In this document: piece by piece, positions 36,444 through 55,437 of the stretch
Layout of the letters: each line of letters starts with the position of its first letter
Position numbering within the stretch: position 1 is the stretch's first letter
Assembly: GCA_030427505.1 (NCBI GenBank)
Contig: JAUICH010000033.1
Span: forward strand, 1-55,791
Length of the DNA: 55,791 bases
Origin: Verrucomicrobiia bacterium
Lineage (GTDB): Bacteria; Verrucomicrobiota; Verrucomicrobiia; Verrucomicrobiales; DEV007
Reading direction: 5' to 3'
Notes under the pieces: generated by a model
The model's database searches: none
The model's input: the letters and a program-made list of their open reading frames with translations, nothing else
Told to the model about the DNA's origin: nothing
Made by a program: the position numbers and the translations under genes

Positions 36444-39400
36444 CTATGACGCGGGAGTCAGGAGGTCTTGCATGCTTCTCGCGAACTGTGCCTGGGTAAA
36501 AGGCTTGTCCAACCGCTTGGTGACACCGAGCGAGGCGAACTGCTCGGCCACGTTCTCGTCCAGCCGCCCGCTGGTGACCAGCACGGGAACGTCGGGCAGA
36601 TGCCGCCTGAGGGTGCGCACGAACCCGAGGCCGTCCATGTGGGGCATGTGCATGTCGGTGATGATGGCGCGCAGCGCGGTTCCTTTTTCGGCAATCAGAG
36701 CCAGCCCTTCCGCGGCGTCGGCTGCCAGCAGAGGAGTGAAGTTCAAGAACTCCAGGACGATTTGAGCCGTGTCACGGACGATGGGTTCGTCATCGACAAG
36801 AAGGATCAGTTCGCCCTGGCCACGGAAAGGGGTGTGTTTCAGAGGGCTTGTTTTTTCTCCCTTGGCATCCGTTTCAGCGGCGGGCAGGTAAACGGTGAAG
36901 GTGGACCCTTCGCCGGGCTGTGAGTAAACCTGGACGAACCCTCCGTGACCCTTGATGATGCCCATGACGGTGGACAGTCCCATACCGGTTCCGCGTTCGG
37001 GGCCTTTGGTCGTGAAGAAAGGGTCGAAGATGAGATCGAGGATTTCAGGTTCGATACCCATGCCGGTATCCCGCACCCGAAGGGCCAGAAAATCCCCCGG
37101 TTTGGCATAGGGGTGAGAGCGCACGAAGGCCGCGTCGATCTCGGTTTCGAATGCCTCCAGAGTAAGGGTTCCGCCCTGAGGCATGGCGTCCCGCGCGTTC
37201 ACGCACAGGTTCAGGAGGATCTGGTGCAGTTGCGTGGCGTCGCCCATGATGGTGGGCAGGGAGGGGGCGCACCTTACCTCCACCTTGATGTTCTTGGGAA
37301 AGGTGCTGCTCATCAGCTTTTCCAGGTCCCTCACCAGGTGGCGGGCCTGAAGGGACACGCGTTCTCCGTCCGCGCCCTTGGCGAAAGTCAGCAACTGCCT
37401 CACCATGTCCGCGCCGCGCTGAGCGCTGGTTTCGATGGTGTCGATCATCACCTTTTCGTCCGGGTACTTCATCCGCATGAGGTCGCAGATCATGAGGATG
37501 GGGGAGAGGGCGTTGTTCAAGTCGTGGGCGACTCCGCCGGCCAGCATGCCGATGCTTTCGATGCGCTGGTTGCGGCGTTCCTGTTTTTCGTGGATGAGCC
37601 GCTCGGTAATGTCCCGGGTGACGCAGATGAAACTCGGGCGGCCTTCGTCTTGCTCCGCCCGTTGCATGCTGATTTCCATGGGAATCTCATGCCCGTCTTT
37701 GTGCCGGTGACGGGTGGTGAAATGGATCACTTCTTTTTCTCCGCTGAGGATGGGCTCGATCAACGCCTGAAGTTTGGCTTCGTCAGCGGTGGGGTCGATG
37801 TCCGCGGGAGTAAAGGAAAGGAGTTCCTCGCGGGAGTAGCCGAGTTGTCTGACCGCGCCTTGGTTGACATAGGTGAACTTCATCGTTTCCGCGTCGGTGA
37901 CGTAGGCGCCATCCACGGTGGCATCCAGCGTGGCGAGGGCCTGCCGCATTTGTTGTTCGGAACGGACTCTTTCGCTGATGTCTCTGACGGAGGCGACGAC
38001 CCATTTGCCGTCATCCGAATCCAAGGGGCTGAGGCTGATTTCGACGGGAAAGATGGTTCCGTCTTTCTTGCGGCCTTTCAGATTGGAGCGTCCGGCTCCG
38101 ATGGCGAGCGGAACCACGGAAGCGAGATACTCTTCGCGCAGGCCCACATGGTTTTCGCGGATGGACTCCGGTAAGAGGATCTCCACGGGCTGGCCGTTTA
38201 ACTCGCTCCGGTGATAGCCGAACATGCTCTCCGCCTGGCGGTTGATCCGGGTAATGAAGCCCTGAGCGTTTGCCATGATGATGGCGTCCGGAGCGAACTC
38301 GAAGAGTTCGTGAAACTGTTTTTCGTTTCGTTCCGCCTGCTGCTGGGCTTGTTTGATGGCGGTGATGTCTTCCAGCGAGAGAACGACGCGAACCGGCCCA
38401 TCTCCCGGGAAGCGACTGGCCCGGCAGAGATACCAACATACTTCATCGCAGCCATGGCAGGCAATTTCGGTCCGGGCCGTTTCCTGCTCACCCGAGATCA
38501 CCTTCCGGATGATCTTGGCCATCTCCGCCGCTTCCGGGTTTCCCGTTCCGGCGGCCTGATCACAGGCCTGGAGGTAGTTGGCGCCTTCAGTGACCGTATG
38601 CCATGGAAGGCAGCGCTCGCCCTCAAAGTCCCGCCAGGCGCGGTTCGTGGTGACAATGCAACCGTCCCCGTTCAGGACCGCGATCTGCGATGAAAGCGCG
38701 TCCAGGGAGGCCCGGGTGAAGCGCTCGCTTTCGCGCAGCGAAATCTGGGCGCGAGATCTCTCGATAGCCGCCCGGCAGCGCTCGGTGACGTGCTGAACGA
38801 TTTGAACTTCGGCCGGTGTCCACTGGCGGAAGGTCGTTTGATGAACCGCCATGACGGCGCGCAGTCCGGTCGGATCGACGATTGGGTTGCAAATCAGAGA
38901 TTTCGCTCCTAGGCGGTCAAACATCTCCCTGTCTTCCTGGGACGAGTAATCTGCCTCCGTGTCGCAGACGACCAGAGTCTGCCCCTGACGGAGCGCCCGG
39001 GCGGTCCGGTCATCGAAATCAGAAAGGCGGCAAGTGCCCATGTGGGGGCCGCAATCGCTGGTGTATTCCCGCAGAACGGTGAAGGTGTTTTTGTCGTCAT
39101 CGAACTCCGCGTAGAGGCAGCGGGACGCTTTCAAGCGTTTGCCCAGCCGTTTGACGACCTTTGCTAAGATTTTATTGGGTTCCGTCAGGGGCCTGATGGC
39201 TTCGCCCAGGTCGTTGAGAAAACTCAGGCGGGCCTCGCTTTCCTTAAGGATTTCTTCCGCGAGCTTTTTCTCTGTCAGGTCTTGAGCCATCCCCAAGAAA
39301 CCGGAGACTCCTCCGTGGCCGTCCAGCAGCGCGCTGACGGAGAGAAGCACGGGAAGACGGGAGCCATCTTTCCGCACGTAAGTCCATTCGCGGGTTTCCG

Positions 39401-40139
39401 GAATTCCGGAGCGGGCATTGGTGACGAACACATCGAAACCGGGTTCTATCTTCCGGCCCAGTGTGTGGGTTAGTTCTTCCGCCACGGCGGCGATCTCTTC
39501 CGGGTCATGAAAGGTCCCCGGGGTTTGCTTGCCGACCATCTCATCGGCTGAATACCCGAGCATCTTTTCGGCCTCCGGATTGAAATGGGTGATGATGCCT
39601 TCGGTGGTGGCGGCGATGATGGCCGTGGCGGCATTGTCCAAGATGGCCTGTTGGAATGCCATCAGTTGGTCCTGCTCACGAGCGGTCTGGAGCAGTTCCA
39701 TTCTGGAGGCCAGCAACGTTCCCAGCCGGGTCAGGTCTTCGCGCTGGTCTTCCGTGAGAGTTTTCGATACGTGATCGAGCACGCACAGGACACCGAGGTG
39801 GCGCCCCGTGGGAGAGATCAGAGGCATGCCCGCGTAGAAGCGGATCTGGGAGGCGGTGGGGTTTTTCTCGAAGACCGGGCTGTCCTGGAATGTGGCGTCC
39901 TGGCTGGTATCGGGAATCTCGTGGATCTTTTCGCTTTGGCTGGCGCGGGCGAAAAATGACTGGTTGATGGAGGCTTCAAGTTCGCCGAGACCTACCTGGC
40001 TTTCTAGCTGGTAGCGGTCTTCTTGCGACAAGACGATGAGGGCGATGGGGACTCCGCATGCCCGGGCCGCGAGCTTGGCAACGTCTTCAAATGCGCTTTC
40101 AATTCGTGCAGACTCGTTGGCGGGGGTAGGGGTGGCCAT
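36444..40139 (-). CDS. hybrid sensor histidine kinase with GAF and PAS domains
   Basis: This 1231-aa soluble protein has, in order: GAF (about 15-150), PAS (165-290), GAF (310-465), PAS-like (470-595), PAS (605-725), PAS (730-850), HisKA with His872 in GGVAHDLNNALSP, HATPase with [14 protein letters not shown] and GTGMGLSTVMG, and a C-terminal REC domain (about 1105-1225) with ITDMHMPHMDG and a KRLDKPF segment. No membrane helix is seen, so it senses cytoplasmic cues. A Cys-rich patch CHGCDEVCWYLC (561-572) in the second PAS region could bind metal or respond to redox. No response regulator is adjacent. The start ATG at 40139 lies at the edge of a 403-base gap. Confidence 0.9.
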   Translation of the reverse strand: MATPTPANESARIESAFEDVAKLAARACGVPIALIVLSQEDRYQLESQVGLGELEASINQSFFARASQSEKIHEIPDTSQDATFQDSPVFEKNPTASQIRFYAGMPLISPTGRHLGVLCVLDHVSKTLTEDQREDLTRLGTLLASRMELLQTAREQDQLMAFQQAILDNAATAIIAATTEGIITHFNPEAEKMLGYSADEMVGKQTPGTFHDPEEIAAVAEELTHTLGRKIEPGFDVFVTNARSGIPETREWTYVRKDGSRLPVLLSVSALLDGHGGVSGFLGMAQDLTEKKLAEEILKESEARLSFLNDLGEAIRPLTEPNKILAKVVKRLGKRLKASRCLYAEFDDDKNTFTVLREYTSDCGPHMGTCRLSDFDDRTARALRQGQTLVVCDTEADYSSQEDREMFDRLGAKSLICNPIVDPTGLRAVMAVHQTTFRQWTPAEVQIVQHVTERCRAAIERSRAQISLRESERFTRASLDALSSQIAVLNGDGCIVTTNRAWRDFEGERCLPWHTVTEGANYLQACDQAAGTGNPEAAEMAKIIRKVISGEQETARTEIACHGCDEVCWYLCRASRFPGDGPVRVVLSLEDITAIKQAQQQAERNEKQFHELFEFAPDAIIMANAQGFITRINRQAESMFGYHRSELNGQPVEILLPESIRENHVGLREEYLASVVPLAIGAGRSNLKGRKKDGTIFPVEISLSPLDSDDGKWVVASVRDISERVRSEQQMRQALATLDATVDGAYVTDAETMKFTYVNQGAVRQLGYSREELLSFTPADIDPTADEAKLQALIEPILSGEKEVIHFTTRHRHKDGHEIPMEISMQRAEQDEGRPSFICVTRDITERLIHEKQERRNQRIESIGMLAGGVAHDLNNALSPILMICDLMRMKYPDEKVMIDTIETSAQRGADMVRQLLTFAKGADGERVSLQARHLVRDLEKLMSSTFPKNIKVEVRCAPSLPTIMGDATQLHQILLNLCVNARDAMPQGGTLTLEAFETEIDAAFVRSHPYAKPGDFLALRVRDTGMGIEPEILDLIFDPFFTTKGPERGTGMGLSTVMGIIKGHGGFVQVYSQPGEGSTFTVYLPAAETDAKGEKTSPLKHTPFRGQGELILLVDDEPIVRDTAQIVLEFLNFTPLLAADAAEGLALIAEKGTALRAIITDMHMPHMDGLGFVRTLRRHLPDVPVLVTSGRLDENVAEQFASLGVTKRLDKPFTQAQFARSMQDLLTPAS

Positions 40140-40542
40140 GGGTTTTCTGCTCTAGACTGTCTCCGTAAGAGAGTGGTTTAGCCTCGGAGGAGACTGGTGG
40201 ACCGAACGCGGATGGCTGGAGATTCTCATCCCTTTTCCATAGTAACGATTGAGGGTTTCAAATACCCTCCATGAACCTTCTCTACCACACATGATGAACT
40301 TCCCCGAAAGAACATCCTACCATTGGTAAAACCCTCCTAGATTTTCTGGAGAGGCATCGGGGGGGACGATGATTCGGGGGCTCCAGAATCTATATTATGC
40401 CTTAAATGCCATCCGGTGTCCATCCCTGACTCATTGGGGGGAAAGTTAGGGGGCGTGCCCGCGCGGGAACGGGGGAGGCATCCGAACAACAGGCGGCGAT
40501 GGCTGCCGCCGGGGTGCGGGCTGGGCGATCTGTTATTACGCC
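40140..40542. other. intergenic gap with dyads, no gene
   Basis: These 403 bases separate the kinase start from the stop of the cupin gene. A perfect dyad GAGGGT/ACCCTC lies at 40251-40269 with a seven-base loop, and CCCGCGCGGG is a ten-base palindrome near 40456. A 14-base string TCGGGGGGGACGAT (40357-40370) also occurs at 20419-20432. No promoter hexamers are convincing. The kinase promoter and the terminator of the biuret-type operon should both lie here. Confidence 0.5.
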
Positions 40543-40998
40543 CTACTCCGAGCCACCGGTTTCTTCCGGCGGCTGGTCAGCGGAAGATTCGAGAAAGCGG
40601 ACGGGCTTTTCGTAGATGGCCAGGACGATGCAGCCGGCCTCGCTGACAATGCTGTGATAGGTGCCGGGCGGGTGAATGCGCAGGGTGCCGGCGCGAACGG
40701 TGCCGTTCTGGTCCCGCTGACTGCCGCTGAGCACGAGAATGTGTTCCCAGCCTTCGTGGTAGTGCAGGGGGACGCGGGCTTCGCGGCGGAAGCGTAGCAG
40801 GGCCGCGGTCGGGCCTTTCACGCCGTCGCCGTAGAGCCGGTGAATGTCCACGCCTTCGCGGAAGGGTTGCCAGGGGAGATCTTCCTGGTGGTTCGCCACG
40901 TCGAAGAGATTCGCGATCTCGACGAGGGGGAAGGGGGGAAGCGTGCTTTCCGTGGTCTCTGGCGGAGGGGCGGTGGTGTCCGGCGCGGTCTTCTTCAC
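40543..40998 (-). CDS. ChrR-like cupin protein
   Basis: This 151-aa protein is read from a GTG at 40998. A single cupin barrel spans about residues 45-140, with the metal motif PLHYHEGWEHILVLSGS (His-x-His..Glu-like) and PGTYHS as the second half. The pattern matches the ChrR/cupin_7 family, seen in anti-sigma partners and in small metal-binding enzymes. It is the last gene of the minus-strand cassette, 89 bases behind the BiuH-like hydrolase, so it may be an accessory enzyme or a sensor for that pathway. The function is inferred only from position. Confidence 0.72.
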   Translation of the reverse strand: MKKTAPDTTAPPPETTESTLPPFPLVEIANLFDVANHQEDLPWQPFREGVDIHRLYGDGVKGPTAALLRFRREARVPLHYHEGWEHILVLSGSQRDQNGTVRAGTLRIHPPGTYHSIVSEAGCIVLAIYEKPVRFLESSADQPPEETGGSE

Positions 40999-41087
40999 GA
41001 TGTGGCGGCAAGGTAGGCGCGCCACCGGAGAGCGCGAGGACAAATTCTTCTGACAGGCTGAAGAAAGGAAAGGGAATGGATACCGGA

Positions 41088-41780
41088 CTATGCCGCCGGA
41101 CGGATGGCCTGGACTAGAGCGGCGGAGTCGCTGACGGCGCCAAAGACGCCGCCCTGCATCTGGATCATCTGGATGGCGGCTTCGTGATTGCCCTTGTCGG
41201 TGGCGCCGGTCGCATCGGTCAGGAGCAGGCACTCGTAGCCGCGGTCGTTGGCCTCGCGCATGGTGGTGTGGACGCAGACGTCGGTGGTGATACCGGCCAG
41301 GATGATATTACGAATGCCTTTCTGCCGTAGCAACATATCCAGGTCCGTGGCGTAGAAGGAGCCTTTGCCCGGTTTGTCGATGATGGCTTCTCCCTCCACG
41401 GGGGCGAGTTCGGGGATGATGTCCCAACCGGCTTCGCCCCGGATGAGGATGCGGCCGCAGGGGCCGGGATCGCCGATGCCGGCGCCGATCTGCTGGCTGC
41501 GCCAGCGCTTGTTGGCGGGCAGGTCGGCTAGATCCGGACGGTGGCCTTCGCGGGTGTGCATGACGTGGTAGCCTCCGGCGCGGGTGGCTTCCAGGACGCG
41601 CTTGATGGGTTCGATGGGGGCGCGAGTGAGCGACAGGTCGTAGCCCATCTGGTCCACATAGCCCCCGGGACCGCAGAAGTCGGTCTGCATGTCGATGACG
41701 AGGAAGACGGTGTTCCCCGGCCGGAGATCGCCGTCGTAGGGCCAGCGGTAGGGGAGGGATTCGACGTAGCGTGGCGTCAT
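41088..41780 (-). CDS. biuH: biuret amidohydrolase-like cysteine hydrolase
   Basis: This 230-aa isochorismatase-fold hydrolase has the catalytic triad Asp34 ([10 protein letters not shown]), Lys139 (KPGKGSF) and Cys169 ([19 protein letters not shown]). Its middle ([20 protein letters not shown]-like, [11 protein letters not shown]) agrees closely with what I recall of the Rhizobium biuret hydrolase BiuH, which cleaves biuret to allophanate and ammonia. RutB-type ureidoacrylate hydrolases are the main alternative. ATG 41778-41780 was chosen because family proteins start near here; the longer upstream reading lacks similarity. It lies between the permease and the cupin genes on the same strand. 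Confidence 0.82.
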
Positions 41781-41918
41781 GATTTTGAAAGAGGTCGTGG
41801 CGGAGAAGTTGCCGGTGAGTTGCGTGTTTCCTCCCCCGGTGGCACCCCTGCTCGTTCGGAGCCGGACCAACCAATGCCACCGGTGGGAGGCGCAGGATAA
41901 CACACTGAGTTTTCGAGC

Positions 41919-43520
41919 TTAGGCCGTCTGGGTGGCCATGCCGTCTTCGGCTTCCACCTCTTCAGGCTCCGCTGCCTGGGCCGGTACCTTCGCGAATACG
42001 GCGCAGCCGCAGAGGATGAGGGCCACCATCAGGTAGCTGACCGCCACCACGGGAGACTTTGCGATGCCAATCTCTTCGCCGTGCATGAGGCCGAAGAAGG
42101 TCAGCACCCCGCCGGTCAGGGCGAAGGCGGCCGAGGACCAGAACTTCCGGTCGATGATCAGCGCGGCCACGGCGGCCAGGATGACACCGCTGAGGATGGC
42201 GCCGCCACCCATGACTTCCAGGCCGTGGTAGAGCACACCCACCTGGCCCAGGCTCTCCATGCCCACGGCGGCGGCGTTCGTTCCGGCGGCGCCGAGGGAG
42301 TTGTCGATCAGCAGCTTACCCCAGGCGGCCAGGTGCGGGGTGAGGGCCAGCACGATGGCCGGGGCGTGGCTCTTCGGCGTTTCCTGGAAGGCCTGCGCCC
42401 CAATCAACATGCCGATGTAGAGCAGAATGGGCGAGATGGCCACGATGGGGATAAGTGACGACATCAGCGAGATGATCCCGAAAGTGCAGAAGAGAATGAC
42501 CACGATCCCCGTGGCGGCGGAGTAGCCGATGCGGCCGCCCATGGATTTCCAGCCGGGGTGGCCGATGTAGACGGCGTTGATAAAGGGGTTCCCCAGGCAG
42601 CAACCGATGAGGCTGATGATGCCGTCCGCGGTGAGCACGCGGGTGGTGGGAAACTCGTCGCCCGCGACGGCGGCGCTTTCCACGTTGTCGAGCGCTTCGA
42701 CGAGGTCATAGATGCCGAAGGGAATGGCCGTCACCAGGATGACGCCCAGGAACTCGAAGCCAGAGAAGATGTGGCCGACTGCTGGAAGCGGAATGGAAAA
42801 ACCGAAGCTGGTGAAAGACTCCGTGAGCTTCGCCAGGCTCATGCCGCCGTAGTTCAGGCCGAAGAGATTCGAGCCCCAACCGATGAGGCAGCCCACCGCG
42901 ATGGCGACAAGGCCCGCCGGGATGCCGCGGAAGTAGCGGACGCCACCGAACCAGCTAAGCAGGATGATGGCGAAACAGACGATGCCGATGACCGGCGTCA
43001 TGAACATCTCCAGCGCGGGACGCATGGAGATGAAGCTGATGGACACCCCGGCGAGCGTGCCCAAGAGGGCGGCGCGGGGCGTGATCTTCCGGATGACGGG
43101 GGCGATGAAGCCGCCGATCATGAGCACAAAGCTCTGGATGAATACCCAGGTCAGGCCGGCTTCCCAGCCCTTGATGGGATCGCCCGTTTTCAGGGCGATG
43201 GGCAGCATGATGACAAAGGTAACGACAAACATGTGCGGCACACTGGTGCCGGAGGGCAGGGCGCAGACATCGGTGCGGCCCGTTCTTTTCGCCAGGCGAT
43301 AGGCGAGCCAGGCGTAGTACAGCGTGCTCAGGCAGAGCATGACGCCGGTGGCGGGAAGGATGCGGCCAAAGACGATGTCGTCCGGCATTTTGACGACGAA
43401 GCGCAGGAGCGCCGTGAGGGTCAAGAGGTTAACCAGAATATTGGTTCCGAAACCGAAGAAGGCGTTCCAGTCGCCTGGCGCCCAGATCTTGGGTTTGAAA
43501 GTAGAGCTTGGTGTGGTCAT
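41919..43520 (-). CDS. NCS2/xanthine-uracil-type permease
   Basis: This 533-aa membrane protein has about 12-14 hydrophobic segments starting near residue 25 (FGFGTNILVNLLTLTALLRFVV). It contains NCS2/AzgA-like traits: ALPSGTSVPHMF near residue 88, GIYDLVEALDNVESAAVAGDEFPTTRV near residue 275 and GCCLGNPFINAVYIGHPGWKSMGGR near residue 308, equivalent to the substrate-binding and Q/N-box regions. Such transporters take up nucleobases or related ring and amide compounds with protons. Here the substrate is probably a urea-type nitrogen source such as biuret, cyanurate or a ureide, judged by the flanking hydrolases. The C-terminal tail is acidic. Confidence 0.85.
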   Translation of the reverse strand: MTTPSSTFKPKIWAPGDWNAFFGFGTNILVNLLTLTALLRFVVKMPDDIVFGRILPATGVMLCLSTLYYAWLAYRLAKRTGRTDVCALPSGTSVPHMFVVTFVIMLPIALKTGDPIKGWEAGLTWVFIQSFVLMIGGFIAPVIRKITPRAALLGTLAGVSISFISMRPALEMFMTPVIGIVCFAIILLSWFGGVRYFRGIPAGLVAIAVGCLIGWGSNLFGLNYGGMSLAKLTESFTSFGFSIPLPAVGHIFSGFEFLGVILVTAIPFGIYDLVEALDNVESAAVAGDEFPTTRVLTADGIISLIGCCLGNPFINAVYIGHPGWKSMGGRIGYSAATGIVVILFCTFGIISLMSSLIPIVAISPILLYIGMLIGAQAFQETPKSHAPAIVLALTPHLAAWGKLLIDNSLGAAGTNAAAVGMESLGQVGVLYHGLEVMGGGAILSGVILAAVAALIIDRKFWSSAAFALTGGVLTFFGLMHGEEIGIAKSPVVAVSYLMVALILCGCAVFAKVPAQAAEPEEVEAEDGMATQTA

Positions 43521-43598
43521 GGCTAGTAGTGGATCGAGTTCGAGTTCTTAGTCGGGTAGCGAAACGGGCGTTTATTCGCTGGTGGGAGGGGGCGGGTG

Positions 43599-44291
43599 TC
43601 AGGCAATGGCTTCCAGGACCGCGCCGGAGGTGGAAACCCACCCGAAGATGCCGCCCTGGGCTTTGATCATTTTCAGCCCCATCTCCTGGAACTCGGGGAA
43701 GTAAGATCCCACGCAGTCAGAGGGGACGAGACAGTTGTAGCCACGGTCATTGGCCTCCCGGACCGTGGTGTTCACACAGACCTCCGTCGTCACGCCGGTG
43801 ACGACGAGCTGGGTGATGCCGCGATTCTGGAGAATGGCGTGGAGGTCCGTGGCGAAGAAGGCGCCTTTGCCCGGCTTGTCGATGACCGGCTCGCCGGGCT
43901 GGGGATAGAGTTCCGGGATGATGTCGTGACCCGCCTCCCCACGGATGAGGATGCGGCCCATGGGGCCCTCGTCACCGATGGTGGTCGCGCTCTTGCCACG
44001 GACTTTCTTGGCCGGCGGCAGGTCGGCGAGGTCGGGCCGGTGGCCCTCCCGGGTGTGGATCACCGTCAGTCCGGCCGCTCGCCAGGCCGAGAGCAGCGCC
44101 TTGTTGGGCTCGATGGTGCGGCGCAGCTGGGAAACGTCGTTCCCCAGCATCTCGCCGAAACCGCCGGGTTCCAGGAAATCGCGCTGCATGTCGATGATCA
44201 GCAGCGCGCAGTGTCCGGGCTCGAACTCGAATTCATAGGGTTCGGCCGCGATGGTGGTGGGCTTGGTCTCGGGCATGGCGATAGCGGACAT
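43599..44291 (-). CDS. isochorismatase-family cysteine hydrolase (second paralogue)
   Basis: This 230-aa protein has the same fold and triad as the 41088 hydrolase: Asp38 ([12 protein letters not shown]), Lys142 (KPGKGAFF) and Cys172 ([19 protein letters not shown]). It shares the [14 protein letters not shown] block and [16 protein letters not shown], but the loop after it ([19 protein letters not shown]) differs in length and charge, so it probably has a different substrate. Triuret, ureidoacrylate or another carbamoyl compound are candidates. It lies 62 bases after the porin gene and 78 before the permease. ATG 44289-44291 was chosen; Met6 is an alternative. Confidence 0.82.
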
Positions 44292-44353
44292 GACTTTGGT
44301 GAGTGTGTCAGGTTCTCGTTTCAGGGAAGCGGAGCTTTCTGCTCCGCCGCGCC

Positions 44354-45307
44354 TCAAAAGAAGATGGAGATACCGGTGTGGAACTGGACCAAGTCGTCCT
44401 TGTGCTCGCGGGGCGTCAGCACGCTGTTGCCGTCGCGCAGGCCGTCGTTGTTCAGGTGGTAGTACTTCACCCCGGCGTAGAAGGTCCAGAAGCCCATGTT
44501 CTTGGGAATGAAGTCCAGCGGCACGCTGGCTTTCACGCTGCTGCAGAACACCGCCAGGCCGGAGCCGCCCGGGCTGCCGTCGATCTGCTGATAGAAGTCG
44601 TCGTCCACCAGGTTGATGAAGTTCGGGAACTCGAACTTCACTTTCCCAATATTGAAGGAAGGCGCGACCCCCAGGGTGAAGTAGAAGGACTCGCTGGAAC
44701 GGCTCGGGTCGAAGACCACGGTGGATTTGTTTTCCAGTTCCAGCCAGTAGGCCACCCAGGGGTGCAGGGCGAAGGGGCCGAAGAGGTCGCTGTCGTCATA
44801 GGAGAGCTTGATCTCCATGTGCGAGGACGTCGGGTAGGAATCCACCATGCTCTCGAAGCGGGTGAAGTTTGTGTCCAGTTGGAACTTGTCGGCGAACTTG
44901 AAGGTCAGGCCGAAGATGGGGTCCAACTCATTCCAGTTGCCCGGGTCGGCGCCGGATTCCTCGGTGTGGATGGAGTTCCAGATCCCGAGAGTCATGGAGA
45001 CGCTGTTCAGGAAAGCGTCCGGCTCGGAATAGAGATCGACGAACAGCAGCGCCAGCGGCTGGAAGATGACGCCTTCATTCTCCACGTTCAACCCGCGAGG
45101 GGTGATGTAGTGGTCGGAGACATCCAGTTGGAATAATCCGTGCAGCCAGGGAGCCGGATCTTCCGGAATGACGACGGCGTCTTTCCCGGACATCTCAGGC
45201 TCTCCCGCCCGGACGTTCATAGTAGTGGTGGTGGCCAGCGCCGCGAGGCCCGCGACGAGACAGAGAGTTCGGGGGAGAGGAGCAGCGAGTCGATGGAGTG
45301 ATTTCAT
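44354..45307 (-). CDS. outer-membrane porin-like protein, first gene of the biuret-type operon
   Basis: This 317-aa protein has a signal peptide ([22 protein letters not shown], processing near residue 35). The remainder is rich in alternating aromatic strands ([49 protein letters not shown]) and ends ISIFF, typical of a membrane barrel C-terminus. No named family is certain; a small substrate-specific porin is the best reading. It is the first gene behind the sigma-54-type promoter at 45394-45408, so it should pass the nitrogen compound through the outer membrane. ATG 45305-45307 follows a 75-base leader. Confidence 0.78.
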
Positions 45308-45393
45308 GTGTCGATTGGCTTGGTATGCGGATACTGAGTTGGCTGTTAGTTGAGTGCCACGGGCCTGTGAACCCGGATTGCCGGACACCAATC

Positions 45394-45408
45394 GCAACCC
45401 GTGTGCCA
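45394..45408 (-). promoter_or_regulatory. sigma-54 (RpoN) -24/-12 promoter
   Basis: On the minus strand the sequence is TGGCAC-ACGGG-TTGC, a perfect match to the core TGGCAC-N5-TTGC with the GG and GC at the required spacing of ten bases. It precedes the porin gene by 86 bases, so transcription should start near 45382 with a leader of about 75 bases. It places the whole porin-hydrolase-permease-hydrolase-cupin operon under an AAA+ activator. Confidence 0.85.
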
Positions 45409-45492
45409 AGCGGGGGTAGGGGTGTTTAAACGCCTGGCTGTCAGGGGGTAAGGGATGGGTGGGCGGTTCCGTGGAGACGGGCCGGAGGTGTA

Positions 45493-45519
45493 GCATCTGT
45501 CGCGGGGTGCGACAGGTGC
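45493..45519. promoter_or_regulatory. 11-bp dyad, candidate upstream activator site
   Basis: GCATCTGTCGC and GCGACAGGTGC form an inverted repeat with one mismatch and a five-base spacer (seven central base pairs perfect). Its centre is about 124 bases upstream of the predicted sigma-54 start, the usual distance for an enhancer bound by an NtrC-family dimer. Binding protein unknown. Confidence 0.6.
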
Positions 45520-45593: not shown

Positions 45594-45803
45594 ATGAGCC
45601 CCGAAGAGATTCACCGGCGCGCGATGGAATTGCCCGAAAACGAAAGGGCGCGCCTGGCTGCTGAACTGCTCACTTCAATTCCAGCAACTCTCACCGGCCC
45701 CGACGATGGAGTCGAAGAAGCCTGGCGCCGGGACCGGGAACTAGACGAAGATCCTTCCACGGGCCGTACGTGGGATGAGATCAAGCGCGAATTGGGCCGT
45801 TGA
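45594..45803 (+). CDS. putative addiction-module antitoxin (TIGR02574-type), orphan
   Basis: This 69-aa protein starts MSPEEIHRRAMELPENERARLAAELL and ends with EEAWRRDRELDEDPSTGRTWDEIKRELG, the typical pattern of small antitoxins of the TIGR02574/RelB-like group (N-terminal DNA-binding helices, C-terminal toxin-binding segment). A ParE/RelE-type toxin gene would normally follow at once, but the next 199 bases hold no such ORF and the base composition drops to AT-rich soon after. The toxin was probably lost when the adjacent island was inserted. Start ATG at 45594. Confidence 0.75.
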   Translation: MSPEEIHRRAMELPENERARLAAELLTSIPATLTGPDDGVEEAWRRDRELDEDPSTGRTWDEIKRELGR

Positions 45804-49027: not shown

Positions 49028-50632
49028 CTACCCCAAAGAAGGAAAGCGGCGGTAGATGCGGCTGCGGTGGACTTTGAGGAGGCGGGCGGCTTCGGCGACG
49101 TTGCCGCCGGTTTTTTGGAGGGCGCGTTGGATGAGGATCATTTCGGCTTCTTCGAGGGCGAAGGGGAGGTCTTCTCCGGGGTTGTTGGTGGCGCTGGCGC
49201 CGGAGGCGGAGGCGGGAGAGGGAGCGGCGGTGTGGCTGGCGGGTGAGGTGGGGGCGGAAGCCGCTGGGGCGGGGAGTGGAACTGGGGTGGAGGAAGGGGA
49301 GGTGGGGGTGCTGAGGGACGAAGTTAGGGCTGAAGCGGGAGATTGCTGAACGGCGGCGATGGGCAGGTGGAGGAGTTGGAGGTGGCCGGGCTCGATGGGG
49401 TTTCCGGCGCTGAGGATGAGGGCGCGTTCCATGGCGTTTTTGAGTTCGCGGATGTTGCCGGGGAAGGGGTGGCCTTTGAGCAGGGTAAGGGCGTCTTCGC
49501 TGAGGGCGGGGCAGGGGACGCCCATTTCGGTGGCGAAGACGTTGAGAAAGTGGGTGGCGAGGAGGGGGATGTCTTCAGGGCGTTCGCGGAGGGGCGGGGT
49601 CTCCACGGTGTAGCGGGCCAGGCGGAAGAAGAGGTCGGAGCGGAAGCCGCCGGAGGCGATTTTCTCGGGCAGGATGGCGTTGGTGGCGCTGATGACGCGG
49701 ACATCCACATGGCGGCCGTGGGCGGCGCCGACGGGGACGATCTCGCCATCTTCGAGGACGCGGAGCAGCTTGGCCTGGAGGGTGGCGGGCATGTCGCCGA
49801 TTTCGTCGAGGAAGAGGGTGCCGCCGTCGGCTAGCTCGAAGTAGCCTTTGCGGTCGGCGGTGGCGCCGGTGAAGGCGCCTTTGACGTGGCCGAAGAACAT
49901 GGACTCCACAAGAGTCTCGGGAATGGCCACGCAGTTGACGGCAACGAAAGCGCCGTCGGCGCGGGGGCTGTGGTGATGGATGGCGCGGGCGACGAGTTCC
50001 TTGCCGGTGCCGCTTTCCCCGGTGATGAGGACGCTGGTGTTGCCGAAGAGATGGAGCCGCTCGATATCCGCCAGGATGCGGCGGAGGTGGGGGCTTTCGC
50101 CGACGAAGGTGTGGAGGCCCCAGCGCTCCGCCTCCAGGGAGACGAGGGAGGAGAGGCGCTGGTCGGCTTTGTCGCGGGACTGCTCGGCGGCTTTCCGGCG
50201 CTGGACCTCGGCCTCCAGCTCGGTATTGCGCTGCTGGAGATCGCGGGTGAGCTGGCTGAGGCGCAGGTGGGTGCTGACGCGGACGAGCACTTCGGCGTCC
50301 TGGTAGGGCTTGGTAATGTAGTCCACGGCGCCGACGCGGAAGCCTTCCAGGACGCTTTGGGTCTCGTCGCGGCTGGTGATGAAAATTACGGGAATATCCC
50401 GGGTCGCTTCCTCGCGCTTAAGCATTTGGCACACGGAGTAGCCATCGTGACCGGGCATCATGACGTCCAGCATGATGAGATCCGGCCGGGCCCGCTCCGC
50501 GAGGTCCAGGGCGTCTTTTCCGCGGGAGACGGCCAGCACTTCGTGGCCCGCGGGTTCCAGCACCCCGGCCAGCAGGGTGAGACTGGCGGGGGTGTCGTCG
50601 GCGACGAGGATGCGGGCGCGTGCGGAACTCAT
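49028..50632 (-). CDS. sigma-54-dependent response regulator (NtrC family)
   Basis: This 534-aa regulator has a REC domain (residues 1-120) with phospho-acceptor Asp56 in LIMLDVMMPG, a coiled-coil linker (125-165), an AAA+ domain with Walker A GESGTGKE (205-212) and the sigma-54 contact loop GAFTGA (252-257), a long Ala/Pro/Ser/Thr-rich linker (about 425-490), and a Fis-type helix-turn-helix at the C-terminus (about 492-534). It activates sigma-54 promoters such as those at 45394 and 53074. Its start overlaps the upstream kinase gene by four bases (ATGA), so the two are a translationally coupled pair. The linker is unusually long and low in complexity. Confidence 0.93.
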   Translation of the reverse strand: MSSARARILVADDTPASLTLLAGVLEPAGHEVLAVSRGKDALDLAERARPDLIMLDVMMPGHDGYSVCQMLKREEATRDIPVIFITSRDETQSVLEGFRVGAVDYITKPYQDAEVLVRVSTHLRLSQLTRDLQQRNTELEAEVQRRKAAEQSRDKADQRLSSLVSLEAERWGLHTFVGESPHLRRILADIERLHLFGNTSVLITGESGTGKELVARAIHHHSPRADGAFVAVNCVAIPETLVESMFFGHVKGAFTGATADRKGYFELADGGTLFLDEIGDMPATLQAKLLRVLEDGEIVPVGAAHGRHVDVRVISATNAILPEKIASGGFRSDLFFRLARYTVETPPLRERPEDIPLLATHFLNVFATEMGVPCPALSEDALTLLKGHPFPGNIRELKNAMERALILSAGNPIEPGHLQLLHLPIAAVQQSPASALTSSLSTPTSPSSTPVPLPAPAASAPTSPASHTAAPSPASASGASATNNPGEDLPFALEEAEMILIQRALQKTGGNVAEAARLLKVHRSRIYRRFPSLG

Positions 50633-53019
50633 ACGGCCTGAATCTGGGCGACGATGCGCTGGATGGTTTTCATGTCGTAACTGGAGAGGAAGCCCCGGAG
50701 GTGCTGGGCGAGCCGCGCCTCGGTGGGGCCCAGGGCCTTCATCTCTTCCAGGCAGGTTTTCAAAACGGTGGAACTGTGCAGTTCCGCCGCCACACTTAAG
50801 CGGTCCGCCAGATCGGCGGGAAGCACTAACTGAGCGAGATCCAGGGCGCCGGTCTCTACTTCTTCCGGCGGGGCTTCGTATTCGAACTCCACGCCGAGCA
50901 ACTGGTGGAGGCAGTCGTAGATACGTTCGGCGCGGAAAGGCTTGGCCACGAAGTCATCGCAACCCGCCTGAAGGAAGGACTCGCGTTCGTGGGTCAGGGC
51001 GGAGGCGGAGGTGGCGACCACTTTCGGGCCGCCGCAGGCGCTGTCCGCCAGGATCTGACGGGCGGCTTCCATGCCGTCCACCTCGGGGAGGCGCATGTCC
51101 AGGAAGACGACGTCGGGCCGGGACACTTTCACCACCTCCAGGGCCTGGCGGCCATGCTCGGCCAGGACGACATCGCCGCCGATGCGGTTGAGCATGGCGG
51201 CGAGGACTTCGCGATTCTCTCGGATGTCGTCCACCACCAGGGCGCGGACGCGGTGGCCTTCCGCCAGGCGCCGGACCCGGCGGACGGCGGGCCGGTCCGG
51301 GTGACCCTCCGGGAGCCCGGCGGGAAGCTGGAGAGTGAAAGCAAAGCAGGAGCCCTTCCCAGGGGTGGACTCCAGGTCCATGGCGCCGCCCATGATGGTG
51401 ACCTGACGCCGCGCGATGGCCAGGCCCAGCCCGGTGCCGCCCCGCTGGCCCTTGCCCTGCTGAAAGGGATCGAAAATGCTTTCCTGGAGCGCGGGCGGGA
51501 TGCCGATGCCGGTGTCCTCCACCTCGAAGCGCCAGGCGCCCGAGTCCGTTTCCCGCCAGCGCAGGGTGACCAGCCCGCGTTCGGTGAACTTCACCGCGTT
51601 GGAAAGGAGGTTGATGAGGACCTGGCGGACTTTGCCTTCGTCGCCATGGACCATGACGGGCTCCGGCGGCGGGGCGGGTTCGAGGCGGAAGCCCAGGCCT
51701 TTTTCCTCGCAGGGGTGGAGGAAGAGACCGCGGATTTCTTCCACGAGACGCGCGAGGTCGAAGTCAGCGGTTTCCAGTTCCATGCGGCCGGCGTCGATCT
51801 TGGAGAGGTCCAGGATTTCGTCGATGAGGCGGAGGAGGTGTTCGCCGCTGTTCAGGATGGTGGCCACGGCATCGCGATGGAAAGGCGGCATCGCGGTGTC
51901 GCGATCGAGGATCTGCGCGTAGCCCAGAATGGCGTGCAGGGGGGTGCGGATCTCGTGGCTCATGTTGGCGAGGAATTCCGACTTGGCCTGGTTGGCGGCA
52001 TCGGCGGCGGCTTCCGCGTCTTTACGCACGGCGACTTCCGTTTGCAGTTCCGCCGCGCGGGCGGCGCCGCTCCAGAGGTGGCGGGAGAGCAGGAGCGTCA
52101 GGCCCAGCACGGCGGCGAGCGTCAGCCAGGACAGGGCGCGGGCCTGGTGGCTGTCGAACTCCACGGTGGGCTCGAAGAGGAGGGTCCAGTGGCGGCCGGC
52201 CACGTCCACGGTGGCGCGCCACTCCGGCGCCCCATTCTGGCGATTTCCTTCCTGAGTGTAGAGCGTCTCGCCGTCCGCCTGGTCGAGCACGGTGAGGGCC
52301 ACGCCGCTTTCCCTGACGTCGCCCAGCGAGAGGCTGATCAGATCGCCAATGCGGAAGACCGCCGTGGCGAAACCCTGGAGCGCGGCGCGGCGTTGCGCCA
52401 CGGTCTGGGCGGGCTGTTTGTAGAGGGGAAAGAAGACCACGAAGCCCTGCTGCGAGCCCGGTTCCTGGGCCAGCCGGATGGGGGCGGTGGCGCAGGGTTT
52501 TCCGGTGTCCCGCGCTTCCTCCAGGGCCGAGCGGCGGCTGGCTTCGGAGCCCACGTCGTAGCCCAGGGCGGCGAGGTTCCGGGAGAGGCTTTCCAGGAAG
52601 TAAACGGGGTAGTACTCCGGCCGGTCGCCGGCGGGGACCATCGCGCCGCCGTCGCTGGTTTCGGTAAAGGTGAAGCCGGTGAAGCCCTCCTCCCGGGCGC
52701 GGGCCTCCCAGGCGGTGCGCTCGCCGTGGGGCACCAGGGGGTCCCAGGCCAGGGCCTGGAGTTCCGGCTGCCGGGCCAGGGCGTTGTCCACAAAGGCGCG
52801 GAAGGTTTCCCGGGTCACGCCGGGGTGAGCTTCAAACAGGGCCGCCACGGCGTGGAGCACCTCCATGGAGCGGAGAATCTGGGACTGGAAGACCTCCACC
52901 CGGTCGGCGGCGCGGCGGCGCACTTCATCCTGGAGGGAGCGGGCGGCTTCCCTGTGAAAAATGCCCGCGAGCAGGCCGCACAGTCCCAGACCCAGGACAA
53001 GCGTGATGATGGCGGGCAC
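50629..53019 (-). CDS. CHASE-domain hybrid histidine kinase
   Basis: This 796-aa membrane kinase starts at a GTG (53017-53019). Two membrane helices (about residues 3-22 and 295-312) flank a periplasmic CHASE domain ([24 protein letters not shown] near residue 71), which binds small external ligands in other bacteria. The cytoplasmic part has HisKA with His355 ([11 protein letters not shown]), a HATPase domain ([25 protein letters not shown]), and a REC domain (about 593-715) with [14 protein letters not shown] helical tail of about 80 residues ends the protein and may be a degenerate Hpt domain. It should phosphorylate the regulator encoded next, with which it overlaps by four bases. Confidence 0.93.
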
Positions 53020-53073
53020 GGTCGAGGGCGCGCGAGAGCGGGGTCTGGGTAGTATCGCGATAGGTCAGGTTGA

Positions 53074-53088
53074 GCACTCGCTGTGCCA
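53074..53088 (-). promoter_or_regulatory. sigma-54-like -24/-12 promoter of the kinase/regulator operon
   Basis: On the minus strand the sequence is TGGCAC-AGCGA-GTGC, preceded by T. GG and GC have the correct ten-base spacing, and only the first base of the -12 box differs from TTGC. It lies 55 bases before the GTG start of the CHASE kinase, giving a predicted leader of about 43 bases. A palindrome AGTTC-C-GAACT at 53133-53143 lies about 75 bases upstream of the start. It suggests that the operon may activate itself. Confidence 0.65.
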
Positions 53089-53175: not shown

Positions 53176-55437
53176 TCAGGAGGGAAGGAAGGCTTCGCTG
53201 GTGACGTGGGCATCCAGCGATTTCCGCACTTTATCCGCGAGCCCGGTAGTGGTGAAGGGCTTGTGGAGAAAGGAGACGTTTGGCTCCTCCAGACAGGACT
53301 GGATCTGCCGGTGGTCGGTGTAACCAGACATGAACAACACGGGGATATCGGGGCGGATTTCGCGCACGGCTCGCATGAGGTCTCCGCCGCACATCGAGGG
53401 CATGATGACATCCGTCAGTAGAAGATGGGGGCGGACGGGGTCTTTCCGGACTTCCTCCAGGGCTTCCTGCGGAGTGCCGCAGGCGATAATGTTGTAGCCG
53501 AGAGATTTGAGGACCATGGAGGCGACGAGACGGACCTCCTGTTCGTCTTCGGTGAGAATGATGGTCTCTCCGCCTTTGGGAACGCTGTCTTCGGCGGGCG
53601 GATGATGGGCCGGGCAGGCTACCGCGTGGTCGCTGGCCGGAAGGTAGACCGTAAAGGTGGTGCCACGCCCCACCTCGCTTTCCAACAGAATGTCGCCTTG
53701 GCTTTGTTTGACGATGCCGTAGACGGTGCTCAACCCCAGGCCGGTGCCCTTGCCAACTTTCTTGGTGGTGAAGAAGGGTTCGAAAATGCGATCTCTAAGA
53801 TCTTCAGGGATGCCGCTCCCAGTATCTGATATGGAAAGGGTGACGTAGTCTCCGGCGGGGAGCCATCCTTCGGAGTTGGGATGGATGGTCTCGAAACCTG
53901 TTTGAATGGTCAGAACCCCACCGGAGGGCATGGCGTCCCGGGCATTCACGACGAGGTTCATGATGATCTGCTCGATGTGAGTTGGATCGGAGGAAACACA
54001 GGGCCGTTCCGGCGCTGTCAGGACATTCAATTGAATGTCTTCCCCGATGAGGCGGCGAAGCATTTTTTCCAAGTCGGAGACGACACGATTCAAGTCTAAT
54101 TCTCTGACTTCGATGACCGACTTCCGGCTGAATGCGAGTAGTTGAGAGGTCAGAGCCGCGGCGCGCTGGGCGGCGTTCTTGATGGCCTCCAGAGTTTCGC
54201 GGCCATCCTCGTCCAGTGAAAGACTGTGAAGCCCAATTTCCGTGTGGCCATTGATGACGGTCAGGAGATTGTTGAAATCGTGCGCGATGCCGCTGGTGAG
54301 GGTGCCAATGCTTTCCAGACGCTGAGAGCGCAGGACCTGGCTCTGGAGGTTTTTTCGTTCCGTGATGTCCGTATTGACGATCAAGATGGACTGTGGAAAC
54401 CCCCGGTCGTCAGTGAGAAGAGTCCACCTGCTTTCCACGGCCAGGTGGGAGCCGTCTTTCCGTTTTCCTTCCAGTTCGCCGCTCCACTGGCCTACTTCCA
54501 GCAATTGACGGTACGCCACGATGATGTCGTTTCCGTCGGGATGGAGAATCGCTTTGGCCCTGCGTCCGATGGTTTCGGCGGACGTCCAGCCGTAAACCTT
54601 TTCGGCGCCTTTGTTGCAGTAGGCAATACGTCCTTTGAGGTCTGTAACGATGATGGCGTCACTCGACTTATCCAAGAGGGCCGCCTGTTCGCGCAGCCGG
54701 TCTTCCACCGCTTTTCGTTCCGTGATGTCACGCAGGGTGGCGAGGAAGGCGGGAGAGTCCTCCCATTCCATTTCCGTGACCCGCATGTCGGCCGTTCTAG
54801 TGGTCCCGTCCTGCTTGCTAACGGAGAACTCCTCCGTTTTCCCCGAAACCAGCGGAAAGCCGGGGAACTGGTCCTCGATGCAGTGATCGCCGAACAACTG
54901 CCTCGCGGCGGGGTTGGCGTAGAGGACGAAGCCGTCTTCGTCCACGACGATCATGGCATCGACATTGTTCTCGATGATCGACCGCACCCGCGCTTCGCTC
55001 CTTTCCAACTGGAGCGCGCGGTTGGAGAGCTCTACTTTCAGCCGGTTGCGCTCGATGGCGTAGCGAATCGAACGCGCGACAGGATTCCCCAAGTCCACGA
55101 CCAATTTAAGAAGATAGTCCTGCGCCCCCTGACGGAGAACCTGGCGAGCCACTTCTTCGTCGTGGAAGCCCGTGATGATAATGACGGGAACTTCAGGGGC
55201 CTGTTCGTGCAGCGACTGAAATGTTTGGACTCCGGAACTGTCCGGCAGATTGAGGTCCAGCAGAACGATGTCGAAGGTCTGATCGTGGAGCAGTTGGATG
55301 GCCTCGGAAAGACGTTCGCACTGGGTTATCTCGTTTTCCAGGTCGTCCGCGGCGGCCAGTTGATCCTCGATGAGGAGCTGGTCCACGGGATTGTCTTCGA
55401 CCAGAAGAATCCGAATGAGAGATGGGGACGGAGACAT
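53176..55437 (-). CDS. hybrid histidine kinase, REC-PAS-PAS-HisKA-HATPase-REC
   Basis: This 753-aa soluble protein has an N-terminal REC domain (residues 8-125) with Asp61 in [12 protein letters not shown], two PAS domains (about 145-245 and 250-365), HisKA with His386 ([17 protein letters not shown]), a HATPase domain with [14 protein letters not shown] and [11 protein letters not shown], and a C-terminal REC domain (about 635-745) with [14 protein letters not shown] and a FLHKPFT segment. It has no membrane helix. A receiver at both ends implies input from another kinase and output to a phosphorelay. It is on the same strand as the CHASE kinase operon but 156 bases upstream with its own AT-rich promoter region. 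Confidence 0.92.

Follow-up and report, generated by a model that had tools for sequence, protein, structure and literature searches.

The 55,791-nucleotide stretch of DNA analysed here (the window) carries five co-oriented open reading frames on its minus strand, in the order porin, trtA, permease, biuH, cupin, and the question raised by this cassette is which nitrogen compound it serves and what controls it. A sequence-only reading had proposed a complete uptake-and-hydrolysis unit of the biuret type under nitrogen-responsive sigma-54 control. We consider it likely, on sequence grounds, that the genes form an inducible operon for scavenging nitrogen from triuret and biuret, controlled by a dedicated CHASE kinase and sigma-54 regulator. 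The unit is bigger than first noted, as a kinase-regulator pair lying beyond the cassette itself co-occurs with it.

The five same-strand reading frames were confirmed and the neighbourhood comparison showed that the gene set recurs among the relatives, as had been expected. One carrier available in culture is Brevifollis gellanilyticus. The porin frame as originally listed begins upstream of the promoter, and its start was corrected by comparison with relatives. The biuH gene probably starts at ATG 41780, trtA probably at 44291 or 44276 and the cupin gene probably at GTG 40998. Terminator-like sites were found six times in the region by the consensus scan, versus 3.8 expected.

Features of the triuret/biuret region, in positions of the window
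Feature	Coordinates	Strand	Basis or remark
Terminator-like stem-loop 3' of the cupin gene	40492..40511	-	Consensus scan alone; weak T run
ChrR-type mono-cupin, candidate carboxybiuret decarboxylase	40543..40998	-	PF12973; H-x-H-x3-E and PxGxxH residues
biuH, biuret hydrolase	41088..41780	-	NCBIfam NF050097, PDB match, residue set
Permease of UraA/SLC23-SLC26 fold, predicted triuret/biuret importer	41919..43520	-	Predicted structure; trtA linkage
trtA, triuret hydrolase	43599..44291	-	Alternative start 44276; PDB match, residues, tree
Outer-membrane channel-like protein ('porin')	44354..45307	-	Operon gene 1; ATG 45307 as in relatives
Sigma-54 -24/-12 element TGGCACACGGGTTGC	45394..45408	-	Exact TGGCAC-N5-TTGC
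Dyad, core TGTCGC-N5-GCGACA at 45498-45514	45493..45519		Probable upstream activating site
Sigma-54 response regulator, REC-AAA(GAFTGA)-Fis HTH	49028..50632	-	Pfam, motifs, co-occurrence
CHASE-HisKA-HATPase-REC hybrid sensor kinase	50629..53019	-	PF03924, 4.7e-52
Sigma-54-like site TGGCACAGCGAGTGCT upstream of the kinase gene	53073..53088	-	Pattern match

Both hydrolases were confirmed as Isochorismatase members by Pfam. The best PDB match of the upstream enzyme was 6xix, a TrtA; all six positions discriminating TrtA from BiuH are of the TrtA type in it and all seven active-site positions shared by the two enzymes are present, and these 13 positions are kept in each of the seven rows compared, window included. 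The Asp-Lys-Cys triad, the substrate-contact residues and the six TrtA-specific positions are those defined in the accessible part of PMC7948467. In a tree of 112 rows, with bootstrap values not fully settled, labels taken from the best BLAST match and no RutB outgroup, the TrtA of the window falls on the TrtA side, apart from BiuH, with a split of 100/100, and in another subclade than the assayed Herbaspirillum enzyme. Of 560 confirmed stretches the TrtA scan retained the best 80, which weights the sample towards close relatives and Bradyrhizobium. In the case of the downstream hydrolase, the BiuH equivalog model NF050097 gave 415.5 bits against a cut-off of 370 (281.1 bits for the TrtA gene, below it), the best PDB match was 6azo, and the BiuH residue set could be observed. 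Neither enzyme reached the RutB model TIGR03614 (125.9 and 113.8 bits, cut-off 377.95 bits). Judged by these residues and scores, the upstream hydrolase is the triuret hydrolase TrtA and the downstream one is BiuH. The earlier suggestion that the two act in succession therefore holds in the form TrtA then BiuH, a combination already published as far as the accessible text of PMC7948467 goes.

The last gene encodes a cupin, and its proposed ChrR-like character was borne out by Pfam (PF12973, E 2.2e-17); the H,H,E,H residues are invariant in all seven rows. The cupin gene also adjoins biuH or trtA in Proteobacteria. Cupin and AtzH-like genes were found together in no cluster among the loci compared, the exclusion having p = 0.0004 with related loci counted as independent. 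Genomes searched in this survey were those behind 29 of the 80 best TrtA loci (of 560), together with six relatives and the genome to which the window belongs; seven BiuH loci were added by hand for the statistic. Aukema reportedly described TrtB of Herbaspirillum in 2020 as a carboxybiuret decarboxylase, and the cupin of the window may have the same activity. In some plasmid records it is annotated as 'allophanate hydrolase'.

The allophanate hydrolase gene proper (AtzF) is located on another contig of the same genome, beside urea carboxylase, and AtzF scored above the cut-off in 7/7 cassette genomes. It was not found inside the unit, and of the complete uptake-and-hydrolysis unit proposed earlier the transport role and the successive hydrolases stand while the completeness does not. 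In G000 and G045 the atzF operon has a sigma-54-like site before its first gene (10/11 in G000); sites of that score stand before this gene at loci L038 and L041. With up to one mismatch allowed, L038-L043 showed no dyad near atzF, and L044 has one place with a single mismatch. The site without a dyad before the G000 atzF operon fits wider nitrogen control.

With E values up to 10 admitted, none of the seven permease members matched a Pfam transporter family, a single unrelated match below threshold being returned, and the permease had no significant PDB sequence match (best E 0.79). A shallow model with pLDDT 38 was replaced by one built on a 52-row alignment (48 stretches from 47 of 66 permease loci, the window and three relatives; L091, with a stop in its stretch, was left out), which reached pLDDT 85.9. 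The predicted structure has the 7+7 fold of the UraA type and resembles UapA (Z 30.1) and UraA (Z 26.9), with SLC26 members nearly equal; among the 50 matches listed, the NCS2/SLC23 and SLC26 transporters gave Z 23.5-30.1 at 8-16% identity in the structural alignments. The NCS2-like label given earlier is thus right for the fold and not for the sequence signature. The permease gene adjoins trtA in all ten genomes with a clear TrtA among 337 Verrucomicrobiota genomes, G577 and G482, with only distant TrtA-like matches of 170-173 bits, not being scored as TrtA. This linkage and the fold agree with the transport role suggested before, and the protein would import triuret and/or biuret. One record annotates the family as 'regulator'. 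The porin frame is present and has a homologue at 7/7 cassettes, the six relatives being 48-65% identical, and Pfam returned no family at the cut-off; the name goes back to the sequence-only reading's impression and an N-terminal signal-like sequence. Presumably it is an outer-membrane protein through which triuret or biuret enters.

The TGGCAC-N5-TTGC element reported upstream of the porin gene is exact and is the single exact match in the window. Since five matches occur when one mismatch is allowed, versus 3.76 expected, the motif by itself is weak. When the 350 bp preceding the porin gene were dinucleotide-shuffled 1000 times, the sigma-54 score was attained in 8 shuffles and the dyad in none. 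The arms of the dyad (45493-45503 and 45509-45519) are 11 bp long, as claimed, and 10/11 complementary, and its core starts 106 bp upstream of the -24 element. Both elements recur in the relatives at nearly fixed spacing: a -24/-12-like site was present in 9/9 cassette genomes, the eight others scoring 9-10/11 (reached by 21-64 of 1000 shuffles in the six genomes shuffled), and a TGTYGC-N5-GCRACA dyad in 8/9, four of them with one mismatch, 96-106 bp above that site. In G038 the dyad was not found, the best place having four mismatches. Throughout G000 the dyad pattern is not enriched, with five places versus seven for the reversed control pattern, and G037, G041, G045, G048 and G051 have spacer-5 matches at places other than the cassette.

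The kinase-regulator pair is found 3.7 kb upstream of the first cassette gene. The regulator has the REC domain, the Sigma54_activat domain with GAFTGA and the Fis-type HTH of an enhancer-binding regulator. In the genome-wide search, which covered 57 + 7 genomes, its orthologues (at least 515 bits; next best 280 bits) occurred in exactly the seven of the 57 genomes that have BiuH and TrtA; it is also present in G748, an eighth cassette genome from a later phylum-wide draw, and absent from the congener G624. A kinase homologue adjoins the regulator in 7/7 cassette genomes, the Pfam check for CHASE having covered four of the seven kinases. In G748, G045 and L064 the pair lies directly beside the cassette. 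A gap of up to about 1.5 kb separates them in G037 and of up to about 0.8 kb in G038, and in G041 and G048 the distance is about 8 kb, with intervening genes. In G051 three separate contigs carry the pair, the main cassette and biuH, this biuH having a sigma-54-like site without a clean dyad upstream. The kinase and regulator of G038 are the most diverged of the cassette genomes, and L078 (BiuH, cupin, TrtA) has neither gene within its 8-kb flanks. By pattern match, the kinase gene is preceded at 36-69 nt by a sigma-54-like site in six of the seven genomes, not in G038; such a site was also seen in L064, not in G748.

The co-occurrence of the regulator and the conserved promoter and dyad make it probable that a two-component system of its own, and not NtrC alone, controls the cassette, and the NtrC-only reading was demoted after this co-occurrence. 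Global nitrogen control, by NtrC or similar, with the kinase-regulator pair incidental or additive, would suit a sigma-54 promoter before genes of nitrogen function and the dyad-less sigma-54-like sites before the kinase gene and, in G000 and G045, before the atzF operon. We regard it as unlikely, because the REC-AAA-Fis regulator is confined to the cassette genomes among those searched and, among the five dyad-pattern places of G000, only that at the cassette has spacer 5. Of the control proposed earlier the sigma-54 promoter thus stands, and a nitrogen response is not the best reading, though it may act in addition.

Similarly improbable is a different ureide as the natural substrate, for example one arising from urate oxidation or derived from cyanuric acid, with TrtA and BiuH acting on it or on downstream products. 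Related clusters do carry atzD or fdrA/arcC-type genes, and no assay of a TrtA from the window's clade was found in the literature; against this, all discriminating and shared active-site positions are kept, and the TrtA that has been assayed shows high specificity for triuret according to the accessible part of PMC7948467. The cupin could instead be a sensory or structural ChrR-like accessory protein, which we hold to be doubtful, though less so than the two preceding alternatives. Its only NCBIfam matches are ChrR anti-sigma factors, below their cut-offs, whereas the full H,H,E,H set, the position in the cluster, the exclusion with AtzH-like genes and its place directly after trtA in the atzD-bearing cluster of Rhizobium pRL10 argue for a pathway enzyme.

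In the triuret/biuret operon proposed here, the outer-membrane protein and the UraA-fold permease would bring in triuret and/or biuret. By homology, TrtA would convert triuret to carboxybiuret and ammonia, BiuH would form allophanate from biuret, and AtzF would finish it. Between the first two steps, the cupin may speed the decarboxylation of carboxybiuret, whose published half-life is about 20 min (PMC7948467), to biuret. The CHASE domain would sense a periplasmic signal, plausibly the substrate, and the kinase would phosphorylate the adjacent response regulator, which would then bind the dyad about 100 bp upstream and activate the -24/-12 promoter of the five genes. More tentatively, with the chances somewhat against it, CHASE would be a periplasmic triuret/biuret receptor and the system a substrate-specific sigma-54 switch, accompanied by an unrecognised transporter family and a carboxybiuret-decarboxylating metal cupin.

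The pairing of TrtA and BiuH is already published (PMC7948467, in its accessible part) and the main addition here is the regulation. The porin-permease-TrtA-BiuH-cupin arrangement was found described nowhere in the literature covered, the accessible part of PMC12625717 included and subscription journals mostly outside that coverage. To a triuret pathway described by its enzymes, in the texts accessible, the analysis adds a putative importer and a putative regulator of its own. A ligand class is proposed for a bacterial CHASE sensor, and functions are suggested for a transporter family that Pfam does not cover and for a cupin that some plasmid records call 'allophanate hydrolase'.

The TrtA-BiuH-AtzF pathway of Herbaspirillum sp. 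BH-1 and Rhizobium leguminosarum, as given in the accessible part of PMC7948467, has the same two hydrolases in a cluster, and they agree with those here at the active-site and discriminating positions; the unit of the window differs in lacking atzF and in its predicted sigma-54 two-component control. It has a UraA-fold permease and an outer-membrane protein, whereas the Rhizobium, Agrobacterium and Sulfitobacter plasmid clusters compared have a BMP-type ABC transporter. The permease shares its predicted fold with NCS2/SLC23 (UraA, UapA) and SLC26 transporters, but not a Pfam transporter family or a significant PDB sequence match. The AtzH/HpxZ-like decarboxylating amidohydrolase (PMC6219798, accessible part) has an NTF2-like fold and no relation to the cupin; it is encoded in other TrtA/BiuH clusters, those without the cupin gene. 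NtrC has NtrB as its partner kinase, while the neighbour of the regulator here is a CHASE hybrid kinase. This kinase has CHASE and HisKA-HATPase-REC in common with CHASE hybrid kinases of the cytokinin-receptor type, and differs from them in its partner, an enhancer-binding response regulator of the sigma-54 type that is linked to a ureide operon.

The sequence-only reading was correct on the positions of the five genes, the dyad and the sigma-54 core. The downstream hydrolase scored 415.5 bits against the NCBIfam BiuH (biuret hydrolase) model, over the cut-off of 370, with 6azo as its top PDB match; the upstream one stayed under this cut-off with 281 bits and matched 6xix best. According to PMC7948467, these structures are Rhizobium BiuH and Herbaspirillum TrtA (triuret hydrolase), respectively. 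Thirteen positions from that paper were compared, of which 6 differ between TrtA and BiuH and 7 are common. The window TrtA carries DFFNEKKAECYQI and the window BiuH DFYYEKKSDCTQV; the TrtA set was unchanged in 7/7 rows, the window among them, and both strings recurred identically in all 8 plasmid-borne homologues checked. In the tree (112 rows) TrtA and BiuH were split at 100/100, and the two hydrolases, previously read as biuret-type, were resolved as one TrtA and one BiuH. A TrtA-like hydrolase (67% identity, 13/13 checked positions as TrtA) was also observed on the E. coli plasmid pCh101 (IncK2/Z), with DUF2877, fdrA, DUF1116, arcC and a cytosine permease as neighbours; Escherichia accounts for 78 of the 267 plasmid records matching TrtA.

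The cassette had been taken for a complete hydrolysis unit, which could not be maintained: allophanate hydrolase (AtzF) exceeded its cut-off in 7/7 cassette genomes, each time apart from the cassette. In the window's genome (G000) its neighbours are urea carboxylase, UAAP1, UAAP2 and a NikR-like regulator, an operon type which we take to be that of guanidine degradation. In G038 the allophanate hydrolase was seen in two pieces with stops within the match, thus it may be broken or mis-assembled.

BiuH and TrtA occurred together in 7 of 57 genomes, the window's own counted. The expected conservation of the neighbourhood was confirmed: the full porin-trtA-permease-biuH-cupin order is present in the window, G045, G041, G048 and G037, as well as in G748 and Brevifollis (L064), while G038 has the genes in altered order and the biuH of G051 lies on a contig apart from the rest. 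Six Verrucomicrobiota loci (L072, L075, L079, L091, L100, L117) show a different arrangement, in which AtzH and AtzE accompany TrtA and the permease and BiuH is missing; this suggests a carboxybiuret deamination route.

A CHASE hybrid kinase and a sigma-54 response regulator lie upstream of the cassette. The regulator search in the 57 genomes gave 7 matches at 515-1167 bits, the next falling to 280, and these were exactly the cassette genomes. Since they are spread over families as 1/36, 1/5 and 5/6, cassette and regulator were probably gained or lost together more than once. The later-drawn G748 has both and its congener G624 neither; in G534, G712 and G733, which have trtA and permease without biuH, the regulator search gave at most 336 bits. 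In G045 and L064 the pair comes immediately after the cupin, and in G748 immediately before the porin; it lies a short way upstream in G037 and G038, at a distance of about 8 kb in G041 and G048, and on a separate contig in G051. The region is bordered by two more large hybrid histidine kinases; for the one at the lower coordinates only generic kinase matches were obtained at other cassettes.

Coordinates of features in the window and in the extracted loci
Feature	Position	Strand	Basis
REC-AAA-Fis regulator	49028-50632	cassette strand	Pfam
CHASE-HisKA-HATPase-REC kinase	50629-53019	cassette strand	Pfam
Flanking hybrid kinases	36444-40139; 53176-55437	-	
Short divergent ORF	45599-45803	+	
Sigma-54-like site before atzF operon	L038:16663-16678 (G000); L041:17544-17559 (G045)	-	10/11
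Sigma-54-like site of G051 biuH	L025:7629-7644		10/11 positions
G038 allophanate hydrolase	L044, G038:C2:231836-233454		
pCh101, cluster with TrtA-like hydrolase	L157:7992-16170		
Terrarubrum permease	L158:8769-10370		
Cupin of L154	L154:8959-9312		

The permease had been called NCS2-like. Its structural model (pLDDT 85.9, from a 52-sequence alignment) points to a UraA/SLC23-SLC26 fold, which agrees with this name, but none of the Pfam transporter families matched the 7 members at E up to 10; no NCBIfam model matched, and the best PDB hit by sequence had an E of only 0.79. Among the best 80 of 560 confirmed TrtA stretches, a sample chosen by TrtA, the permease was present at 66, in 60 of them with a start less than 800 nt from trtA and in the same orientation. 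Across the phylum, a draw of 337 Verrucomicrobiota genomes gave close permeases (at least 797 bits) in 10, the identical 10 that have a clear TrtA (at least 336 bits), and the two genes were adjacent in 10/10; two further genomes had distant TrtA-like matches only (170-173 bits). None of the permeases at 446 bits or below in this draw adjoined TrtA, therefore members of the broader transporter family also occur in other contexts. The Terrarubrum permease, encoded between trtA and atzF, is publicly annotated as 'regulator'.

Among these best 80 of 560 stretches, the ChrR-type cupin was present at 8 loci and AtzH-like genes at 21, with no locus having both; AtzE was present in 10, none with BiuH. 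In case of 24 BiuH loci, 10 had AtzH, 7 the cupin and 7 neither. Eleven additional loci gave AtzH in 2, the cupin in 6 and both in none, and one of them (L205) combines AtzE, AtzH and BiuH. Genome-wide, PF11533 was absent from 12 of 13 cupin genomes, the 13th (L078) having a weak match outside the cluster (32.5 bits, cut-off 27); it was present in 19 of 23 other genomes tested and absent in 4. The cupin gene of Rhizobium pRL10 overlaps the end of trtA, in a cluster that includes atzD. We suspect that the cupin is the carboxybiuret decarboxylase TrtB or an analogue. The L154 cupin is publicly annotated as 'allophanate hydrolase'.

The sigma-54 motif alone was only mildly unusual, its score being reached by 8 of 1000 shuffles; the dyad (TGTYGC-N5-GCRACA) was reached by 0/1000 in the window and by 0-5/1000 across the six loci tested (G000, G037, G041, G045, G048 and G051). 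The core starts upstream of the -24 element by 106 bp in G000 and G037, 105 in G048 and G051, 104 in G041 and L064, 101 in G748 and 96 in G045, with one mismatch in G045, G037, G748 and L064; upstream of the -24 element of G038 it is absent. Since in G000 the pattern occurs genome-wide no more often than its reversed control, and is also present elsewhere in relatives, what counts is its position and spacing. The short divergent ORF of the window presumably resembles an addiction-module antitoxin.

The kinase gene has a sigma-54-like site, lacking the dyad, in front of it in 6/7 genomes and L064, not in G748, and in G000 and G045 such sites directly precede the operon whose last gene is atzF. 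Because of these sites, sigma-54 may join both halves of the pathway, cassette and atzF operon, while the dedicated regulator would act on the uptake operon. The separately placed biuH of G051 was observed to have its own sigma-54-like site, as if the regulon had been split.

The trtA-biuH-atzF combination has already been published (PMC7948467), thus the enzyme part of the cassette is known. The pathway is known; the predicted layer of transport and control is new.
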